Shown here in pieces: positions 2,864 to 19,142 of a stretch of 51,286 nt of DNA. Made by a program: the position numbers and the translations under genes. Source of the DNA: Bradyrhizobiaceae bacterium (GTDB lineage Bacteria > Pseudomonadota > Alphaproteobacteria > Rhizobiales > Xanthobacteraceae); NCBI GenBank assembly GCA_947481635.1, contig CANKHJ010000009.1, forward strand, positions 1 through 51,286, read 5' to 3'. Positions within the stretch are counted from its first letter, which is position 1, and each line of letters begins with the position of its first letter. A model generated the notes under the pieces. The model was not told where the DNA came from and ran no database searches. It was given only the letters and a program-made list of their open reading frames with translations.

Positions 2864-2955
2864 TGTCATCGTCCGCGAAAGCGGACGATCCAGTATTCCG
2901 TGTCCTATCGATAGGCCTCGGAATACTGGATGCCCCGCTTTCGCGGGGCATGACA
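2864..2955. repeat. large intergenic palindrome, REP-like copy 1
   Basis: An imperfect long inverted repeat between two convergent genes. The outer arms are TGTCATCGTCCGC on the left and GGGGCATGACA on the right. The inner arms CCAGTATTCCG and CGGAATACTGG are perfect complements around a central loop. Each arm carries its own small hairpin (GTCCGCgaaaGCGGAC and CCCCGCtttcGCGGGG), so the transcript could form a cruciform-like structure. Lying between convergent genes, it could act as a bidirectional terminator or mRNA 3' stabiliser. It belongs to the same family as the copies at 4641, 12651, 14501 and 46724. Confidence 0.8.
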
Positions 2956-4055: not shown

Positions 4056-4610
4056 ATGAGTGGAATCAGGCGTGTGGTCACCGGCCACGACAAGGACGGC
4101 AAAGCGGTGGTGGTGATCGACGGCACGGCGCCGAATGTGAAGGAGCGTAAGGCCGCCAACGTCGTCTCGACGCTGATGTGGGTGGTCAACGAAACCCCGG
4201 CCGATATTTCCGGCAGCGCCGATCGCGCAACGGCCGATATCGGGGTCGCGCCCCCGCCCAACGGCCACATTTTCCGCATCGTCGACTTCCTGCCGGCGTC
4301 CGGTGCTTCCGGGGAGGGCAATGAGGCGATGCTGCGCGAGATGGGGATCAAGAATGATGGCGGCACGCCGCCGCGCCACGCCTTCACCCACCGCACCAAG
4401 AGCATCGACTATGCGCTGATCCTCGAGGGCGAGATCGACATGCTGCTCGACGACAGCGAGATCCACCTCAAGGCCGGCGACGTGCTGGTCCAGCAGGGCA
4501 CCAACCATGCCTGGGTCAACAACACCGACAAGGTATGCCGTGTGGCCTTCGTGCTGATTGATGGGGTCGAACCGCCGGCGTGGAAGCTGAAGCCAAGCGC
4601 CGGGCATTGA
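4056..4610 (+). CDS. cupin domain-containing protein
   Basis: A 184-residue protein with a single conserved beta-barrel in its C-terminal half. It runs from HAFTHRTKSIDYALILEGEI through DVLVQQGTNHAWVN, which fits cupin motif 1 and motif 2 with metal-binding histidines. The glutamate usually seen in motif 1 seems to be replaced by Asp in SIDY, so whether it is a catalytic dioxygenase, an isomerase or a binding protein cannot be said. The ATG at 4056 follows GGGAGGAATGAC; the ATG five bases earlier is out of frame. It is divergent from the decarboxylase-like gene at 3929 and followed by a palindromic repeat. Placement inside the catabolic island suggests a role on an aromatic acid or its cleavage product. 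Confidence 0.82.
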   Translation: MSGIRRVVTGHDKDGKAVVVIDGTAPNVKERKAANVVSTLMWVVNETPADISGSADRATADIGVAPPPNGHIFRIVDFLPASGASGEGNEAMLREMGIKNDGGTPPRHAFTHRTKSIDYALILEGEIDMLLDDSEIHLKAGDVLVQQGTNHAWVNNTDKVCRVAFVLIDGVEPPAWKLKPSAGH

Positions 4611-10270: not shown

Positions 10271-12643
10271 ATGGATGCGAAAAACGAGAAGGCCGCCCGG
10301 GAAAGCGGTCCTTTCATCGGCCGCCCGATGCCACGCTTCGAGGACCTGCGCTTTGTGCGTGGGGCCGGCCGCTATACCGACGACACGTCGCTGCCGGGGC
10401 AGGTGTTTGCTGCTTTTGTACGCACGCCTCATGCGCATGCAATGATCCAGGGCGTCGATACCGCGGCTGCGAAAGCGGCGCCGGGCGTGCTGGCGGTGCT
10501 GACCGGCGCGGATTACGTGGCCGCGGGCTACAAGGGCATCACGCAGGTGCCGGTTCCGACCGATGTTATAGACCATACCAAACCGGCCTTTATCGACAAC
10601 GCGCGCAAAGTCCTCGACGAGCCGCATTGGCCTCTCTGCTACGACCGCGTTCGCTTCATCGGCGAGCCGGTTGCGGTGGTGGTCGCGCAGACCATGCTTC
10701 AGGCGCGCGACGCGGCCGAACTGGTCGCGGTGGATTATGAGGTCCTTCCGGCGGTGGTCGACGTTCTCGACGCGATCGCGCCGGGCGCACCGACGCTGTG
10801 GGACAAGGCGCCCGACAACATCGCGATGGAATCCGAATTCGGCGATCGCGCCGCCGTCGATGCGTTGATGGCGGACGCGCACCTCGTCATCGAGCATGAA
10901 TTCCGCAACCAGCGCGTCGCAAACATGCAGATGGAGCTTCGCTCCTCGATCGGCAGCTACGACGCGGCATCCGGCAAATACGAATTGCTCTCAGGCAGCC
11001 AGAGCGCGCATCGCCTGCGTTTCTACATCATGAGTGCGCTCGGCATGACCTCCGAGCAATTGCGCGTCGTGACGCCGGATGTCGGCGGCGGCTTCGGGCC
11101 GCGCACCAATCTGCAACCCGAACAGGCCATTTTGCTTTGGGCGGCGAAGGTGGTCGGCAAGCCGGTGAAGTGGACCGCGGACCGTTCGGAATGCTTCCTC
11201 ACCGACTATACCGGCCGCGATCTCGTGACCCGCGCGAAGCTCGCCTTCGACCGGCGCGGCCGCATCAAGGCTTTCTCGGCCGAACTGATCGGCAATGTCG
11301 GTGGCCAAACCGTTTCGTTCGTCTCGCTCAACAACGGCTGGCGCATTTCGCCGGGCGTCTATGTGGTGCCGAAAGCGTGGCTGCGGGTCGTCGCGGTGAT
11401 GACCAACACCGTGCCGACCGCACCCTATCGCGGCGCCGGTCGTCCCGAGGCGATGTTCGTGATCGAGCGGCTGATGGACATGGCCGCGAAGCGGCTCAAG
11501 CTCGACCGCGTCGAGATCAGGCGGCGCAACATGGTGCCGCATGACATCCTGCCGTATCACACCGCCACCGGGCTGAACTACGACAGCGGTGCCTTCGCCG
11601 CCAATCTCGACCACGCGCTGGCGCTCTCCGACTGGAACGGCTTTGCGGCGCGCCGCAAGGACGTGAAGAAGCGCGGCAAGCTCGCCGGCATCGGGGTCGC
11701 GAATTACATCGAAGCGCCGGTCGGCGCGCCGCATGAGCGCGCCGACGTCACCGTGATGGCGGATGGCAGTGTCGAGCTCAAGGTCGGCACCCAGGCGTCA
11801 GGCCAGGGACATGAGACGAGCTTCGCGCAAGTGGTCGCCGACCAGCTTGGGGTGCATCCCGCCGACGTGCGTTTCGTACAGGGCGACACCAGCAAGGTCG
11901 TGTCCGGCGGCGGTACTCATTCGGATCGTTCGATGCGCTATGCCGGCCGGATGATCGTCGAGGCGTCCGCGGACATCGTGGCGCGCGCGAAGAAGGTCGC
12001 GGCGGCTTTGCTCAATGTCCATGAGGACCAAGTCGTCTTCGAGGATGCGCTGTTTTCCGCCAAGAACAGCAACCGCCGGCTCACCATCGCCGATATCGCG
12101 CGCGCGATCGACGAGGACCCCTTGCCCGACGAATTGCGCAAGCCGCTGACCGCGACGGCGCATCACACCGGTCGCATTCCGGCGCATCCGACCGGCGTCG
12201 CGGTGTGCGAACTGGAGCTCGATCCGGACACCGGCGTGATCGCGATCACGCGCTACACCTCACTGGACGACGTCGGGCAGCCGATCAATCCGCTGATCCT
12301 GCATGGCCAGACCCACGGTGGCATCGCACAGGGCATCGGCCAGGCGCTGATCGAGAACCTGGTCTATTCATCCGATGACGGACAGCTCCTGACTGGGAGC
12401 CTGATGGATTACGGCGTGCCGCGCGCGCATATGCTGCCGAATTTCACGGTCGAGATGACCGAAGATCCCACACACGGCAATCCGCTGCGCGTCAAAGGCG
12501 GCGGCGAAGGCGGGCTGACGCCCTGCCTTGCGGCCGTGATCAACGCGGTGGTGGACGCACTCGCGCCCTATGGCATCGAGCACATGGAGATGCCGGCGAC
12601 GCCGTATCGGGTCTGGGCTAAGATCAAGGACGCGACGGGTTAA
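10271..12643 (+). CDS. xanthine dehydrogenase family molybdopterin-binding large subunit
   Basis: A 790-residue molybdenum hydroxylase large subunit of the CoxL/aldehyde oxidase type. The N-terminal domain begins RPMPRFEDLRFVRGAGRYTDD. The cofactor-binding region has GGGFGPR, the active-site loop reads PYRGAGRPE (385-393), and the catalytic glutamate is Glu746 in VKGGGEGGLTP. The loop is not the AYRCSFR of true CO dehydrogenase, so this is a form-II/hydroxylase type that puts water-derived oxygen onto aldehydes or N-heteroaromatic rings. The ATG at 10271 is chosen because the protein then begins a few residues before the conserved GRPMPR; an alternative at 10223 has no better signal. The usual FAD and 2Fe-2S subunits are not encoded next to it, which is odd. 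It is divergent from the UbiD operon. Confidence 0.9.
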   Translation: MDAKNEKAARESGPFIGRPMPRFEDLRFVRGAGRYTDDTSLPGQVFAAFVRTPHAHAMIQGVDTAAAKAAPGVLAVLTGADYVAAGYKGITQVPVPTDVIDHTKPAFIDNARKVLDEPHWPLCYDRVRFIGEPVAVVVAQTMLQARDAAELVAVDYEVLPAVVDVLDAIAPGAPTLWDKAPDNIAMESEFGDRAAVDALMADAHLVIEHEFRNQRVANMQMELRSSIGSYDAASGKYELLSGSQSAHRLRFYIMSALGMTSEQLRVVTPDVGGGFGPRTNLQPEQAILLWAAKVVGKPVKWTADRSECFLTDYTGRDLVTRAKLAFDRRGRIKAFSAELIGNVGGQTVSFVSLNNGWRISPGVYVVPKAWLRVVAVMTNTVPTAPYRGAGRPEAMFVIERLMDMAAKRLKLDRVEIRRRNMVPHDILPYHTATGLNYDSGAFAANLDHALALSDWNGFAARRKDVKKRGKLAGIGVANYIEAPVGAPHERADVTVMADGSVELKVGTQASGQGHETSFAQVVADQLGVHPADVRFVQGDTSKVVSGGGTHSDRSMRYAGRMIVEASADIVARAKKVAAALLNVHEDQVVFEDALFSAKNSNRRLTIADIARAIDEDPLPDELRKPLTATAHHTGRIPAHPTGVAVCELELDPDTGVIAITRYTSLDDVGQPINPLILHGQTHGGIAQGIGQALIENLVYSSDDGQLLTGSLMDYGVPRAHMLPNFTVEMTEDPTHGNPLRVKGGGEGGLTPCLAAVINAVVDALAPYGIEHMEMPATPYRVWAKIKDATG

Positions 12644-14500: not shown

Positions 14501-14622
14501 TGTCATGCCCCGCGAAAGCGGGGCATCCAGTACGCCGTGTCCTATCAGTAGAAAGCCGGAGAGAGCTTTCCTTGATCATTCTGCACGGGGTACTGGATCC
14601 CCCGCTTTCGCGGGGGATGACA
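14501..14622. repeat. large intergenic palindrome, REP-like copy 4
   Basis: Inverted repeat in the 315-base gap between two leftward genes. TGTCATGCCCCGCGAAAGCG begins the left arm; the right arm ends CCCCGCTTTCGCGGGGGATGACA. Inner arms GGGGCATCCAGTAC and GTACTGGATCCCCC are complementary. It is nearly the same sequence as copy 1 at 2864 (shared CCCCGC/GCGGGG hairpin and CCAGTA segment), which shows that the family is dispersed. The rest of the gap holds nothing I can identify. Confidence 0.8.
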
Positions 14623-15732: not shown

Positions 15733-16560
15733 ATGAGCAGCGGGAACAAATCATTGGGCGGGATTCGCGTCGGAATCGCCGGGCTCGGCACCGTGGGGCG
15801 TGCGTTGGCGCGGCCCCTTGCCGCAGGTCTTGCCGGGTTGTCGCTGACCTGCGTCGCCGCCCGCGACGAGGCCAAGGCGCGCGCCTGGCTTGCGTCCGCC
15901 GGCATCGACTGCCCGGTGGTGCCGCTCGGCGCAATCCCCGACCATGCCGATCTCGTCGTCGAGTGCGCGCCGGCCGCTCTGCTGGCGCAGATCGCCGAAC
16001 CGATGCTCGCGCGCGGCAAGTCGGTGATGGTATTGAGCTGCGGCGCGCTGTTGCGGCACGGCGAGCTGATCGACCTGGCCGAGAAATCCGGTGGCCGCAT
16101 CATCGTGCCGACCGGTGGCCTGCTCGGCCTCGACGCGGTCGCCGCCGCGCGGGAAGGGACGATCCATTCGGTGCGCATGATCACGCGCAAGCCACCGAAC
16201 GGCCTCGCCGGCGCGCCTTACCTGATCGAGAACGGCATCTCGGTCGACGGCCTGGTTGCGCCGAAGCGTGTGTTCGACGGCACCGCGCGCGGCGCCGCCG
16301 CCGGCTTTCCCGCCAACGTCAACGTGGCGGCCGCATTGGCGCTTGCCGGCATCGGCCCGGACCGCACCCTGATCGAGATCTGGGCCGATCCGACCGTGAC
16401 ACGAAACTGCCATACGATCGAAGTGGATGCCGACTCCGCCCGTTTCACGCTCTCGATTGAAAACATACCGTCGGAAAATCCCAAGACCGGGCGGATCGTG
16501 GCGCTGTCGGTGCTCGCGACCTTGCGCAAGCTCGGCGCTCCGTTGCAGGTGGGTACGTAA
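15733..16560 (+). CDS. nadX: aspartate dehydrogenase-like oxidoreductase (NadX/DUF108 type)
   Basis: A 275-residue NAD(P)-binding protein. Residues 10-25 give the GIAGLGTVGRALA Rossmann motif, and the DUF108 region carries PANVNVAAALALAG and ENIPSENPKTGRI, the motifs of L-aspartate dehydrogenase. That enzyme oxidises aspartate to iminoaspartate with release of ammonia, feeding NAD synthesis in some species. Here it stands alone at the edge of a catabolic island and not beside nadA/nadC. A role as an amino- or imino-acid dehydrogenase for a nitrogen-containing breakdown product is therefore worth considering. The start at 15733 lacks a strong ribosome site but fits the family. The gene symbol reflects family membership, not proven function. 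Confidence 0.8.
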   Translation: MSSGNKSLGGIRVGIAGLGTVGRALARPLAAGLAGLSLTCVAARDEAKARAWLASAGIDCPVVPLGAIPDHADLVVECAPAALLAQIAEPMLARGKSVMVLSCGALLRHGELIDLAEKSGGRIIVPTGGLLGLDAVAAAREGTIHSVRMITRKPPNGLAGAPYLIENGISVDGLVAPKRVFDGTARGAAAGFPANVNVAAALALAGIGPDRTLIEIWADPTVTRNCHTIEVDADSARFTLSIENIPSENPKTGRIVALSVLATLRKLGAPLQVGT

Positions 16561-16660
16561 GGCCGCTGCGTTATTGTATCCAGCAGGTCGGCACCCTTCG
16601 CGTACACATGTTAGTGGGGATAATAATCTCATATAGAGACATAATTCCCTTCATGTGCTA

Positions 16661-17040
16661 ACCTTCCCTCATCCCTGCTCATGAGGGGGCGTCTTCTAGA
16701 GACGGTCCTGAAGGCGGAGCAGGGTGCGGTGCCTGCGGCCGTGGCTCGTAACCACGCACTCGGGCGACCCCGGGACTCCGCCCTGCGGGCATTACGACCC
16801 GCACGCGAGGAGCTCGCTGGACTGGATCGGCGCGTTGCCGGTCAGGTTCGCGCGGCCGGGTCGATAAATCCGCAAGTGGAGCGCCGAGAGGCGGGCGCGT
16901 CGATCGCAAGACGCGCGCTGTGCCATCGCAGGCACAGCTCCTGATACTGCGCCTCCCGGCGCTCCGCTCCCCCTCGCTTTTTGAACGTGGGGGACATGGC
17001 ACAACTCGGGCGCGACGGCGCCGCGAGACCAATTCATGCT
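16661..17040. repeat. candidate dispersed non-coding element upstream of the hyf-like operon
   Basis: This 380-base stretch lies in the 575-base gap between the aspartate dehydrogenase gene and hyfB. It carries no convincing coding sequence: frames on both strands show no recognisable protein or family motif. It is rich in small inverted repeats (CCCTCAT/ATGAGGG, GCCGTGGCTCGTAACCACG, CTGCGGGCATTACGACCCGCA). Its composition differs from nearby coding DNA. From memory, stretches resembling 16800-16975 recur in Bradyrhizobium-group genomes and are often wrongly annotated as short proteins. I could not check this here. It may be a dispersed repeat or a structured leader RNA. Confidence 0.5.
16666..16687. 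repeat. short perfect hairpin at the start of a non-coding element
   Basis: CCCTCAT-ccctgctc-ATGAGGG is a seven-base perfect inverted repeat with an eight-base loop. It opens the structured non-coding stretch upstream of the hyf-like operon. The AT-richer 100 bases before it, ending the aspartate dehydrogenase intergenic space, contain no gene. Confidence 0.6.
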
Positions 17041-17055
17041 GTCTGGAGATAGAGG

Positions 17056-17139
17056 ATGACGCAGCTCACGCCGATCGATGCAGACGCAGGTGACACCGGC
17101 TTGCTCCGCCCGCTTTCGGTGTGCTTTGTCACCGCATGA
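17056..17139 (+). CDS. 27-residue leader ORF overlapping hyfB
   Basis: A short ORF (MTQLTPIDADAGDTG followed by 12 mostly hydrophobic residues ending CFVTA). It has a good ribosome site: GGAG seven bases before its ATG, inside GGAGATAGAGG. Its stop codon TGA overlaps the hyfB start as ATGA, the same coupling used between most genes of the operon. The hyfB start itself has no visible ribosome site, so translation of this small ORF probably delivers ribosomes to hyfB. It could be a leader peptide, a small membrane-associated protein or the remnant of a longer gene. No similarity is recognised. Confidence 0.5.
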   Translation: MTQLTPIDADAGDTGLLRPLSVCFVTA

Positions 17140-19142
17140 CACCGGTCCTGGTCGAATCCGGGTGTGTCGCGGCGCTTCTGGCGGCCGCGGCGATCGCCAT
17201 TGCGCTTGGCCGCTTTCGGGCCGGCTCGCCCGTGCTTTATGCCGCCACGCTGGCGATCTCGCTGGTCGCGGGCGGTCAGGCCTTCCTCGTCTTGCTAGCG
17301 GGAGGCGCGGTCTCGGACCTTCTCCTGCCGCTCGGATTGCCGGGCGTCGGCGCAAGACTCCGGCTCGATGCGCTGTCGGCCTTTTTCCTGGTCGTGATCA
17401 ATCTGGCAGGCGCAGCGGCGAGCCTCTATGCGCTCGGTTACGGCCGCCACGAAGCGGCGCCGTCGCGCGTCCTGCCGTTCTTCCCGGCCTTTCTCGCCGG
17501 CATGAACCTCGTCACCCTGGCCGCCGATGCCTTCACCTTCCTGCTCGCCTGGGAGTTCATGTCGCTGTCGTCCTGGGCGCTGGTCACGGCGCATCACGGG
17601 GACGACCGCAATATTCGCGCGGGCTATGTCTACCTGCTGATGGCGAGCGCCGGCACGCTGTGCCTGTTGCTGGCCTTCGGCCTGCTCGGTGGCGGCGGAT
17701 TGTCGTTTGACGCGATCCGCGCCGGCCAGCCCGGAGGCGTCGTCCTCGTGGCGGCGATCATCCTGGCGCTGATCGGCACCGGCTCCAAGGCTGGCCTGGT
17801 GCCGCTGCATGTATGGCTGCCGCTGGCGCATCCGGCCGCGCCCAGCCACGTCTCGGCGCTGCTATCGGGGGCGATGACCAAGGTCGCGGTTTACGGCTTC
17901 ATCCGCATCGTGTTCGACCTCATTCATGCCCCGGCGTCGTGGACGGCGATGGTGGTGGTGGCGGCCGGCGGCATCACCGCGGCGATCGGCATGCTCTATG
18001 CGCTGATGCAGAGCGATCTGAAGCGGCTGCTTGCCTATTCGACGGTGGAGAATATCGGCATCATCTTCGCCGGCCTCGGTCTGGCGCTGGCGTTCCAGGC
18101 CAATGGAATGGACTGGGCCGCGGCGCTCGCGCTCACGGCGGCGCTGTTTCACGCCTTCAACCATGCGGTCTTCAAGAGCCTGCTGTTTTTCGGCGTCGGC
18201 GCGGTTCTCACCGCGACCGGCGAGCGCAGCATGGATCGCCTTGGCGGGCTGATCCACCGCATGCCCGCGACCGCGGTGTTTGTGCTGATTGGATGCGCCG
18301 CGATCGCGGCGCTGCCGCCGCTCAATGGCTTCGTCTCGGAATGGCTGACCTTCCAGGCGATCCTGGTGTCGCCGCAATTGCCGCAATGGGGCCTGAAGTT
18401 TCTCATTCCCGCGGTCGGCGCGCTGCTGGCATTCTCGGCCGCGCTCACCGCGACCTGCTTCGTCAAAGCCTTTGGCGTGACCTTCCTCGGCCGGCCGCGC
18501 ACGCCCGCCGCCGAGACCGCGAACGAGACCGACGGTTTCTCGCTCGCAGCGATGGGCATCCTCTCCGCGCTCTGCTTCATCGCCGGTATTCTGCCGGGCT
18601 TGGTCATCGACCTGCTCGCGCCGGTGACGCAAAGCCTGGTCGGTCGCAGCATGCCGGTGCAGCACGCGTTGCCGTGGCTCTCGCTGGTGCCGGTGGCTGA
18701 GCGATCGAGTTCCTATAACGGCATCATCCTGCTCGCCTTCCTGATCCTGGCGGGCGCGCTGACCGCGATGGTGATCCATCGCGTCGCGACGCGCGCGACG
18801 CGGCGCGTTCCGATGTGGGATGGCGGCTATCCGCAGACATTACCGGCGACGCAATATGCCGGGTCGAGCTTCGTGCAGCCGATCCGCAGGGTGTTCGGTT
18901 CGAGCGTCTTCATCCTGCGTGAGACCGTCGACATGCCACGGCCCGGCGACGTGCGGGCCGGCACTTTCCGTATCAAGATGATCGATCCGGCCTGGCGCTT
19001 CGCCTATGGCCCGATCGGACGCCTGGTGCGGATCGGCGCGGCGCGCCTCAATCGCCTGCAATTCCTCACCATCCGCGCCTATCTCACCCTGGTTTTCGGC
19101 GCGCTGATCGTGTTGCTCGTCATGGTGGCGGCATGGCGATGA
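17136..19142 (+). CDS. hyfB: Ehr/hydrogenase-4 subunit B-like antiporter protein
   Basis: A 668-residue integral membrane protein of the NuoL/NuoM/MrpA antiporter family with about 14-16 hydrophobic segments. The Proton_antipo_M core includes WEFMSLSSWALV, GSKAGLVPLHVWLPLAHPAAPSHVSALLSG, LLAYSTVENIGI and HAFNHAVFKSLLFFGVGAV, which contain the Lys and His residues thought to conduct protons. A C-terminal cytoplasmic-looking segment with MWDGGYPQTLPATQYAGSSF matches HyfB/HycC-type proteins. The ATG at 17136 overlaps the leader ORF stop. It is the first large gene of a six-gene train and would form one of two ion-pumping modules of the complex. The symbol denotes homology to hydrogenase-4; the complex here is probably not a hydrogenase. 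Confidence 0.9.
   Translation: MTPVLVESGCVAALLAAAAIAIALGRFRAGSPVLYAATLAISLVAGGQAFLVLLAGGAVSDLLLPLGLPGVGARLRLDALSAFFLVVINLAGAAASLYALGYGRHEAAPSRVLPFFPAFLAGMNLVTLAADAFTFLLAWEFMSLSSWALVTAHHGDDRNIRAGYVYLLMASAGTLCLLLAFGLLGGGGLSFDAIRAGQPGGVVLVAAIILALIGTGSKAGLVPLHVWLPLAHPAAPSHVSALLSGAMTKVAVYGFIRIVFDLIHAPASWTAMVVVAAGGITAAIGMLYALMQSDLKRLLAYSTVENIGIIFAGLGLALAFQANGMDWAAALALTAALFHAFNHAVFKSLLFFGVGAVLTATGERSMDRLGGLIHRMPATAVFVLIGCAAIAALPPLNGFVSEWLTFQAILVSPQLPQWGLKFLIPAVGALLAFSAALTATCFVKAFGVTFLGRPRTPAAETANETDGFSLAAMGILSALCFIAGILPGLVIDLLAPVTQSLVGRSMPVQHALPWLSLVPVAERSSSYNGIILLAFLILAGALTAMVIHRVATRATRRVPMWDGGYPQTLPATQYAGSSFVQPIRRVFGSSVFILRETVDMPRPGDVRAGTFRIKMIDPAWRFAYGPIGRLVRIGAARLNRLQFLTIRAYLTLVFGALIVLLVMVAAWR

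Follow-up and report, generated by a model that had tools for sequence, protein, structure and literature searches.

The 380-base block at positions 16661–17040 of the window (the whole stretch of 51,286 nucleotides analysed here, from the Bradyrhizobiaceae bacterium assembly GCA_947481635.1) is probably one member of a family of free-standing RNA genes, highly structured and about 400 nt long, which has spread at the DNA level. In the mechanism that we propose, each copy would be transcribed as its own RNA; this RNA would act in trans, through its fold by itself or in partnership with a protein, and duplication at the DNA level, promoter included, would give rise to new copies.

The window copy sits between an aspartate dehydrogenase gene (15733–16560) and the first gene of an Ehr operon, all on the plus strand. 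Similarity among the copies in the window's own genome spans approximately 16606–17049, making the limits 16661–17040, set in an earlier reading of the DNA letters (hereafter the sequence-only reading), slightly short; the best-supported RNA helices lie within approximately 16672–16976. The outer features are:

16606–17049, plus strand: whole dispersed element, bounded by own-genome copy similarity, with 5′ end ACATGTTAGTGGGGAT and 3′ end CAATTCATGCTGTCTGGAGA.
16606–16621, plus strand: 5′ end motif, GCATGAACAGTGGGGAT in other own-genome copies; by eye, an imperfect, weak inverted match to the 3′ end TTCATGC.

Searching the host genome by BLAST returned 13 strong pieces (E below 1e-50) of partial or full length, at 86–95% identity to the window copy (itself 100%), with all other matches at chance level. 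Eight of the 13 pieces end at a contig end, and the element thus accounts for some of the breaks in this fragmented assembly (338 contigs). The 3′ end is present in 10 pieces, the 5′ end in eight and both in five, which places the copy number between 10 and 13.

The description of the block as rich in hairpins, made in the sequence-only reading, is borne out by its predicted fold. On the plus strand, 16661–17040 folds to −203.8 kcal/mol compared with −176.6 kcal/mol for shuffled sequence (z −4.5), better than all of 100 dinucleotide shuffles; 16664–17043 on the same strand gives z −5.0 and the minus strand of the block z −3.9. The covariance modelling suggested in the same reading reveals strong covariation among relatives. 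In a first alignment (A2; 41 of 43 usable references, with L002 and L076 omitted), RNAalifold predicts 33 pairs, and in 21 of these both sides are changed in one or more sequences. In a larger one (A3; 53 of 54 filtered sequences plus the window's stretch, with L126 omitted, from 66 before a 93% identity filter), 22 of 34 pairs are changed on both sides. The A3 helix cells contain 95.1% standard pairs versus 81.3% after shuffling, and two-sided changes occupy 265 cells, whereas shuffling leaves 74 on average and sliding no more than 63; none of 500 shuffles reaches any of five pairing measures. This structure was derived from the same alignment, which biases the comparison somewhat in its favour, yet the margin is large. 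The paired cells of A3 hold 265 G-T but 22 A-C combinations; since pairing on both strands would give similar counts of the two, the plus strand is the acting strand. The helices are as follows:

16673–16724, plus strand: helix P1 (16673–16680 with 16717–16724) around hairpin P2 (16690–16694 with 16700–16704); A3 helices 1 and 2, formed in the single-sequence fold.
16729–16770, plus strand: helix P3 around hairpin P4 (16740–16744 with 16752–16756, loop CUCGUAA); A3 helices 3, 4 and 5.
16785–16802, plus strand: hairpin P6 (16785–16789 with 16798–16802, loop CAUUACGA); A3 helix 6, with two-sided changes in 5 of 5 pairs.
16805–16817, plus strand: hairpin P7, GCGAG-GAG-CUCGC; a regular expression matches it in 68 of 100 copies, with G-C/C-G swaps in A2; weaker than P1–P6.
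16875–16968, plus strand: long hairpin P8 (16875–16893 with 16950–16968; 19 nt, 89% complementary) with a variable two-hairpin tip.
16683–16975, plus strand: proposed long-range helix, GAGGGGG (16683–16689) with CCCCCUC (16969–16975); modest support.

The pairs of P4 carry two-sided changes in 4 to 27 of the 54 sequences. Both arms of P8 are near-invariant in the 24 sequences of a 3′ alignment (A6), chosen from the 43 loci listed with a 3′ stretch. The long-range helix may close the molecule: own pairing scores 5.89 versus 5.58 shuffled, with 24 of 5000 shuffles as high, among the 41 of 100 copies that were usable (59 were dropped, as the anchor or enough sequence was missing), a result that lends the closure modest support; the single-sequence minimum free energy fold pairs these bases otherwise. 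ARAGORN finds no tRNA in the block, and a tRNA-like reading of its hairpins was rejected. Elsewhere in the window the same program calls a 97-base tRNA-Ile (gat) at 12226–12322 (minus strand), a call that may be false, the Rfam scan of the window being without any match.

Apparently, the block is a folded RNA gene and not protein-coding, as judged from the pattern of its sequence variation. No open reading frame inside it matches Pfam or NCBIfam, in keeping with the sequence-only reading, which had seen no credible gene there and had named a conserved protein within the block as the finding that would speak against a structured element; no such protein was found inside the block. Among 54 relatives, the length is divisible by three in 163 out of 6059 pairwise gap runs, and each forward frame contains a stop in 31–33 of the 54 sequences (approximately 60%). 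It is therefore very improbable that the block is a coding remnant, despite open frames on both strands, given the missing protein family match and a gap and stop pattern that is non-coding; the same low probability attaches to a known RNA missed by the search. Rfam does lack some published motifs, for example Rhizobiales-1 (PMC2864571). Against this, Rfam 15 gives zero matches in the window at gathering score, the matches at E up to 5 all falling far below these scores, and in 20 loci of relatives no match to the element at gathering scores, the only matches being to 6S RNA and a TPP riboswitch, both outside the element.

Many copies in relatives carry a conserved promoter. A sigma70-like TTGACA/TATAAT pair with at most three mismatches is present, within the 57 bases around the start of the conserved domain, in 44 of the 90 copies whose upstream DNA is long enough, compared with 4 of 270 windows further upstream and 1 of 90 antisense windows. 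The start of the −10 box clusters at −3 to −1 relative to the domain start, and a second promoter type, TTATCC with a TTATCT-like box, is present in 12 further copies. The corresponding place in the window is:

16622–16665, plus strand: site at which relatives have the promoter block (TTGACA, 16–19 nt, TATAAT-like); the window copy is without a consensus promoter here.

Among the observations that count against the reading as an RNA gene, no TTGACA-type promoter was found in the eight own-genome copies inspected, the window's included, whose 5′ ends share GTGGGGAT in its place; no terminator has been identified for the element; and conservation is low in the 3′ third (mean column identity 33% in A6). 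Furthermore, covariation alone cannot tell RNA from structured single-stranded DNA. In relatives, many promoters contain ATTCCTA in the spacer, between approximately 45 and 10 bases before the RNA, sometimes as the palindrome ATTCCTATAGGAAT (L065); this motif could be an operator.

The element is concentrated in one bacterial family. When 60 relatives were compared by BLAST, the element was matched in 24 of the 36 that belong to the same family and, weakly, in one of the 24 from other families. A covariance model of the 5′ domain (R1; 146 positions, built from the 54-sequence alignment A3) matches 70 of 119 family genomes and 33 of 47 genera, with at least 26 matches in the richest genomes (two in number, these copy numbers being lower bounds). 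Together with the at least 10 copies (13 pieces) in the host, this rules out a single occurrence, the repeat search of host and relatives having been proposed in the sequence-only reading. Of 160 genomes drawn from the order, six match, namely the window's own genome and five of the 159 others, the latter in three other families and aligning over the whole model; for family and order alike, the genomes drawn are a sample. When named genomes were scanned with an exact pattern, 58 stretches were returned, of which a profile search confirms all but three, these three being actinobacterial; the named matches include Pseudolabrys, Tardiphaga, Rhodoplanes, Pseudorhodoplanes, Variibacter and Rhodopseudomonas, and also Bauldia and Devosia. 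The host family is probably the Xanthobacteraceae, taken as broadly as the genome collection defines them. The earlier suggestion of a dispersed element of the Bradyrhizobium group holds in substance: the element is multi-copy, structured and in the same family; no Bradyrhizobium-named contig occurs among the 58 stretches, some of which are labelled ‘Bradyrhizobiaceae bacterium’. The element pattern does not occur in viral contigs, plasmids give no match to DNA queries taken from three copies, and phages give none to the window copy. One Pseudorhodoplanes contig (L116) contains two tandem element matches (4215–4364 and 4381–4472), and at another locus (L146) the 5′ domain lies shortly upstream of a putative ribosomal protein S2 gene.

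Comparison of four sister species informs on the turnover of the element. Of their 49 copies, all but two singletons fall into 11 flank-linked groups, each with members in three or four of the species, a pattern which suggests that sites are mostly stable, with some gained or lost. At the site of one singleton (L224), the element is replaced in two sisters by other intergenic DNA of 75 or 87 bp, and the third has an apparent diverged relative of the element in the same place. Another candidate empty site (L213) was set aside as uninformative: its flanks are found in three sisters (in one of them on two contigs), and the other two have approximately 850–990 bp of other DNA between the flanks. 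Identities of the sister flanks lie near 0.72, the level of unalignable DNA, and no claim about selection is drawn from them. In the window genome, all copies are closer to one another than to any relative retrieved (the best match outside has 74% identity across 351 bases, reaching approximately 84% over short parts), which points to a family that has recently multiplied and spread there, or has been homogenised.

These properties invite an explanation as a non-autonomous mobile DNA element (MITE- or REP-like), in which the hairpins serve a transposase as DNA and transcription is incidental. The many dispersed intergenic copies, the imperfect 7-bp terminal inverted match GCATGAA/TTCATGC, the copy of one species that is missing at the same site in two sisters, and the high identity of the own-genome copies, suggesting a recent burst, are all in its favour. 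Nonetheless we consider it rather unlikely, as the multi-branched fold, the conserved loops and the G-T excess exceed the needs of a simple palindrome and the promoters are conserved at a fixed place. Moreover, a target duplication is not evident by eye in the five complete own-genome copies, and no other element with the same ends is found in the genome (a fragmented assembly), save for one match with three mismatches.

The surroundings of the element are varied. Among the flanking frames of 102 copies there is no dominant neighbour family, the largest cluster containing six, at varied distances and on varied strands; a protein partner encoded next door was rejected on this basis, and no transposase, integrase, nuclease or helicase recurs in these flanks. 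The next downstream gene shares the strand of the element in 54 of 85 cases and lies opposite in the other 31, and the upstream gene is on the opposite strand in 49 of 89; these are rough counts from a crude gene caller. Roughly, they suggest that promoter-side intergenic regions are favoured, and not a strict leader position. In the window's own genome, nine of the 10 copies with a called downstream gene point at that gene, an arrangement that suits a 5′ leader there. The calls were made with a hexamer script; at least its upstream call in the window is wrong, being an antisense frame of the aspartate dehydrogenase gene, and the one downstream gene that it places on the opposite strand in the own genome (L008) appears to be an antisense frame as well.

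The downstream side of the window copy comprises:

17056–17139, plus strand: 27-codon reading frame (MTQLTPIDADAG...) directly after the element, preceded by GGAGA at 17045–17049; no Pfam match; putatively expressed.
17136–19142, plus strand: first Ehr gene, a proton-antiporter-like membrane subunit, next downstream (PF00361, E 5e-49).

The ribosome-binding-site-like GGAGA constitutes the 3′ end of the window copy, and the stop of the 27-codon frame overlaps the first Ehr start at 17136, so that translational coupling of the short frame to the Ehr start is a reasonable inference from the overlap. Lacking a consensus promoter, ending in GGAGA and followed by the short frame, the window copy appears to have been incorporated into the 5′ region of the Ehr operon. 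A similar overlap of frame and gene start occurs downstream of copy L004, and at copy L007 a gene begins directly after the element; other own-genome copies are followed by frames starting MTEPTPID or similar.

This order of element, GGAGA, short frame and overlapping start, with its parallels at L004 and L007 and the predominance of codirectional genes, would be expected of a cis-acting leader, by which the window copy controls the Ehr operon and other copies their own downstream genes. So would the repeated placement before what we take, from the translations, to be serS, with a tatC-like gene upstream (L133, L139, L059 and L346), and before one presumed GMC oxidoreductase gene (L007, L140, L144 and L306). 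Such a role is unlikely as an account of the family. The element occurs at none of 29 other Ehr-gene loci (among the 30 best loci of 58 genomes with a match), and its neighbours are unrelated genes in both orientations; the function as an Ehr leader RNA that the sequence-only reading had considered is thus not supported as a conserved one. Neither recurrent placement proved to be conserved: a strong match is found at one of 30 serS loci, plus one weak match (30 best loci of 112 genomes with a match), and at two of 30 GMC loci, the own genome's included (30 best loci of 92 genomes with a match). The downstream gene families are unrelated, more than a third of the called downstream genes lie on the opposite strand, and the conserved promoter in relatives marks the start of an RNA rather than the leader of fixed genes. 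A local effect of the element on the Ehr operon in its own genome may nevertheless occur.

With the RNA-gene reading preferred, the element can be set beside known systems. Mobile or repeat sequence candidates, as described in PMC11109978, are similarly structured, present in several copies per genome and inconsistent in orientation relative to their neighbours; unlike them, the element has no recurrent transposase, integrase, nuclease or helicase, and many copies have a conserved promoter. Br-REP1 and Br-REP2 of Bradyrhizobium and Rhodopseudomonas are likewise intergenic structured repeats of related bacteria, but are palindromes of approximately 20–40 nt (PMC5082802), and neither consensus occurs in the window with up to three mismatches. 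A REP-like palindrome, CATGCCCCGCGAAAGCGGGGCATCCAGTA, occurs three times in the window (2924–2952, minus strand; 14504–14532, plus; 14591–14619, minus; zero expected), and similar palindromes come after own-genome copies L008, L009 and L010. The Bradyrhizobium sRNA families BjsR1–BjsR10 are sRNA genes with predicted RpoD-type promoters, some with two to four imperfect copies; they are reported (PMC5082802) as mostly Bradyrhizobium-specific and few-copy, features in which the element would differ from them.

The element shares with OLE, ROOL and GOLLD an elaborate bacterial RNA fold of unclear function; it differs in having no Rfam match, in being shorter than the approximately 600 nt of OLE and in having far more copies per genome. 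HEARO, the omega RNA of IscB, is a dispersed structured RNA of a few hundred nucleotides; in contrast, the element has no recurrent adjacent gene family (102 copies) and no Rfam match. On the basis of Rfam 15 and a limited literature search, the family is apparently undescribed.

More tentatively, this large RNA gene class may constitute a selfish or semi-domesticated genomic family, in which each copy has its promoter and fold, no protein is encoded beside it, and the RNA would be needed for its own spread or would form a trans-acting ribonucleoprotein. At least 26 copies of a structured RNA of approximately 400 nt in the richest genomes would mean a sizeable unannotated component, both transcribed and mobile, in a large and much studied group of bacteria from soil and roots. 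Model R1 makes the family searchable, and its promoter and transcript are directly testable. The window copy, for its part, would show how a copy of an RNA gene can join the 5′ region of an operon.
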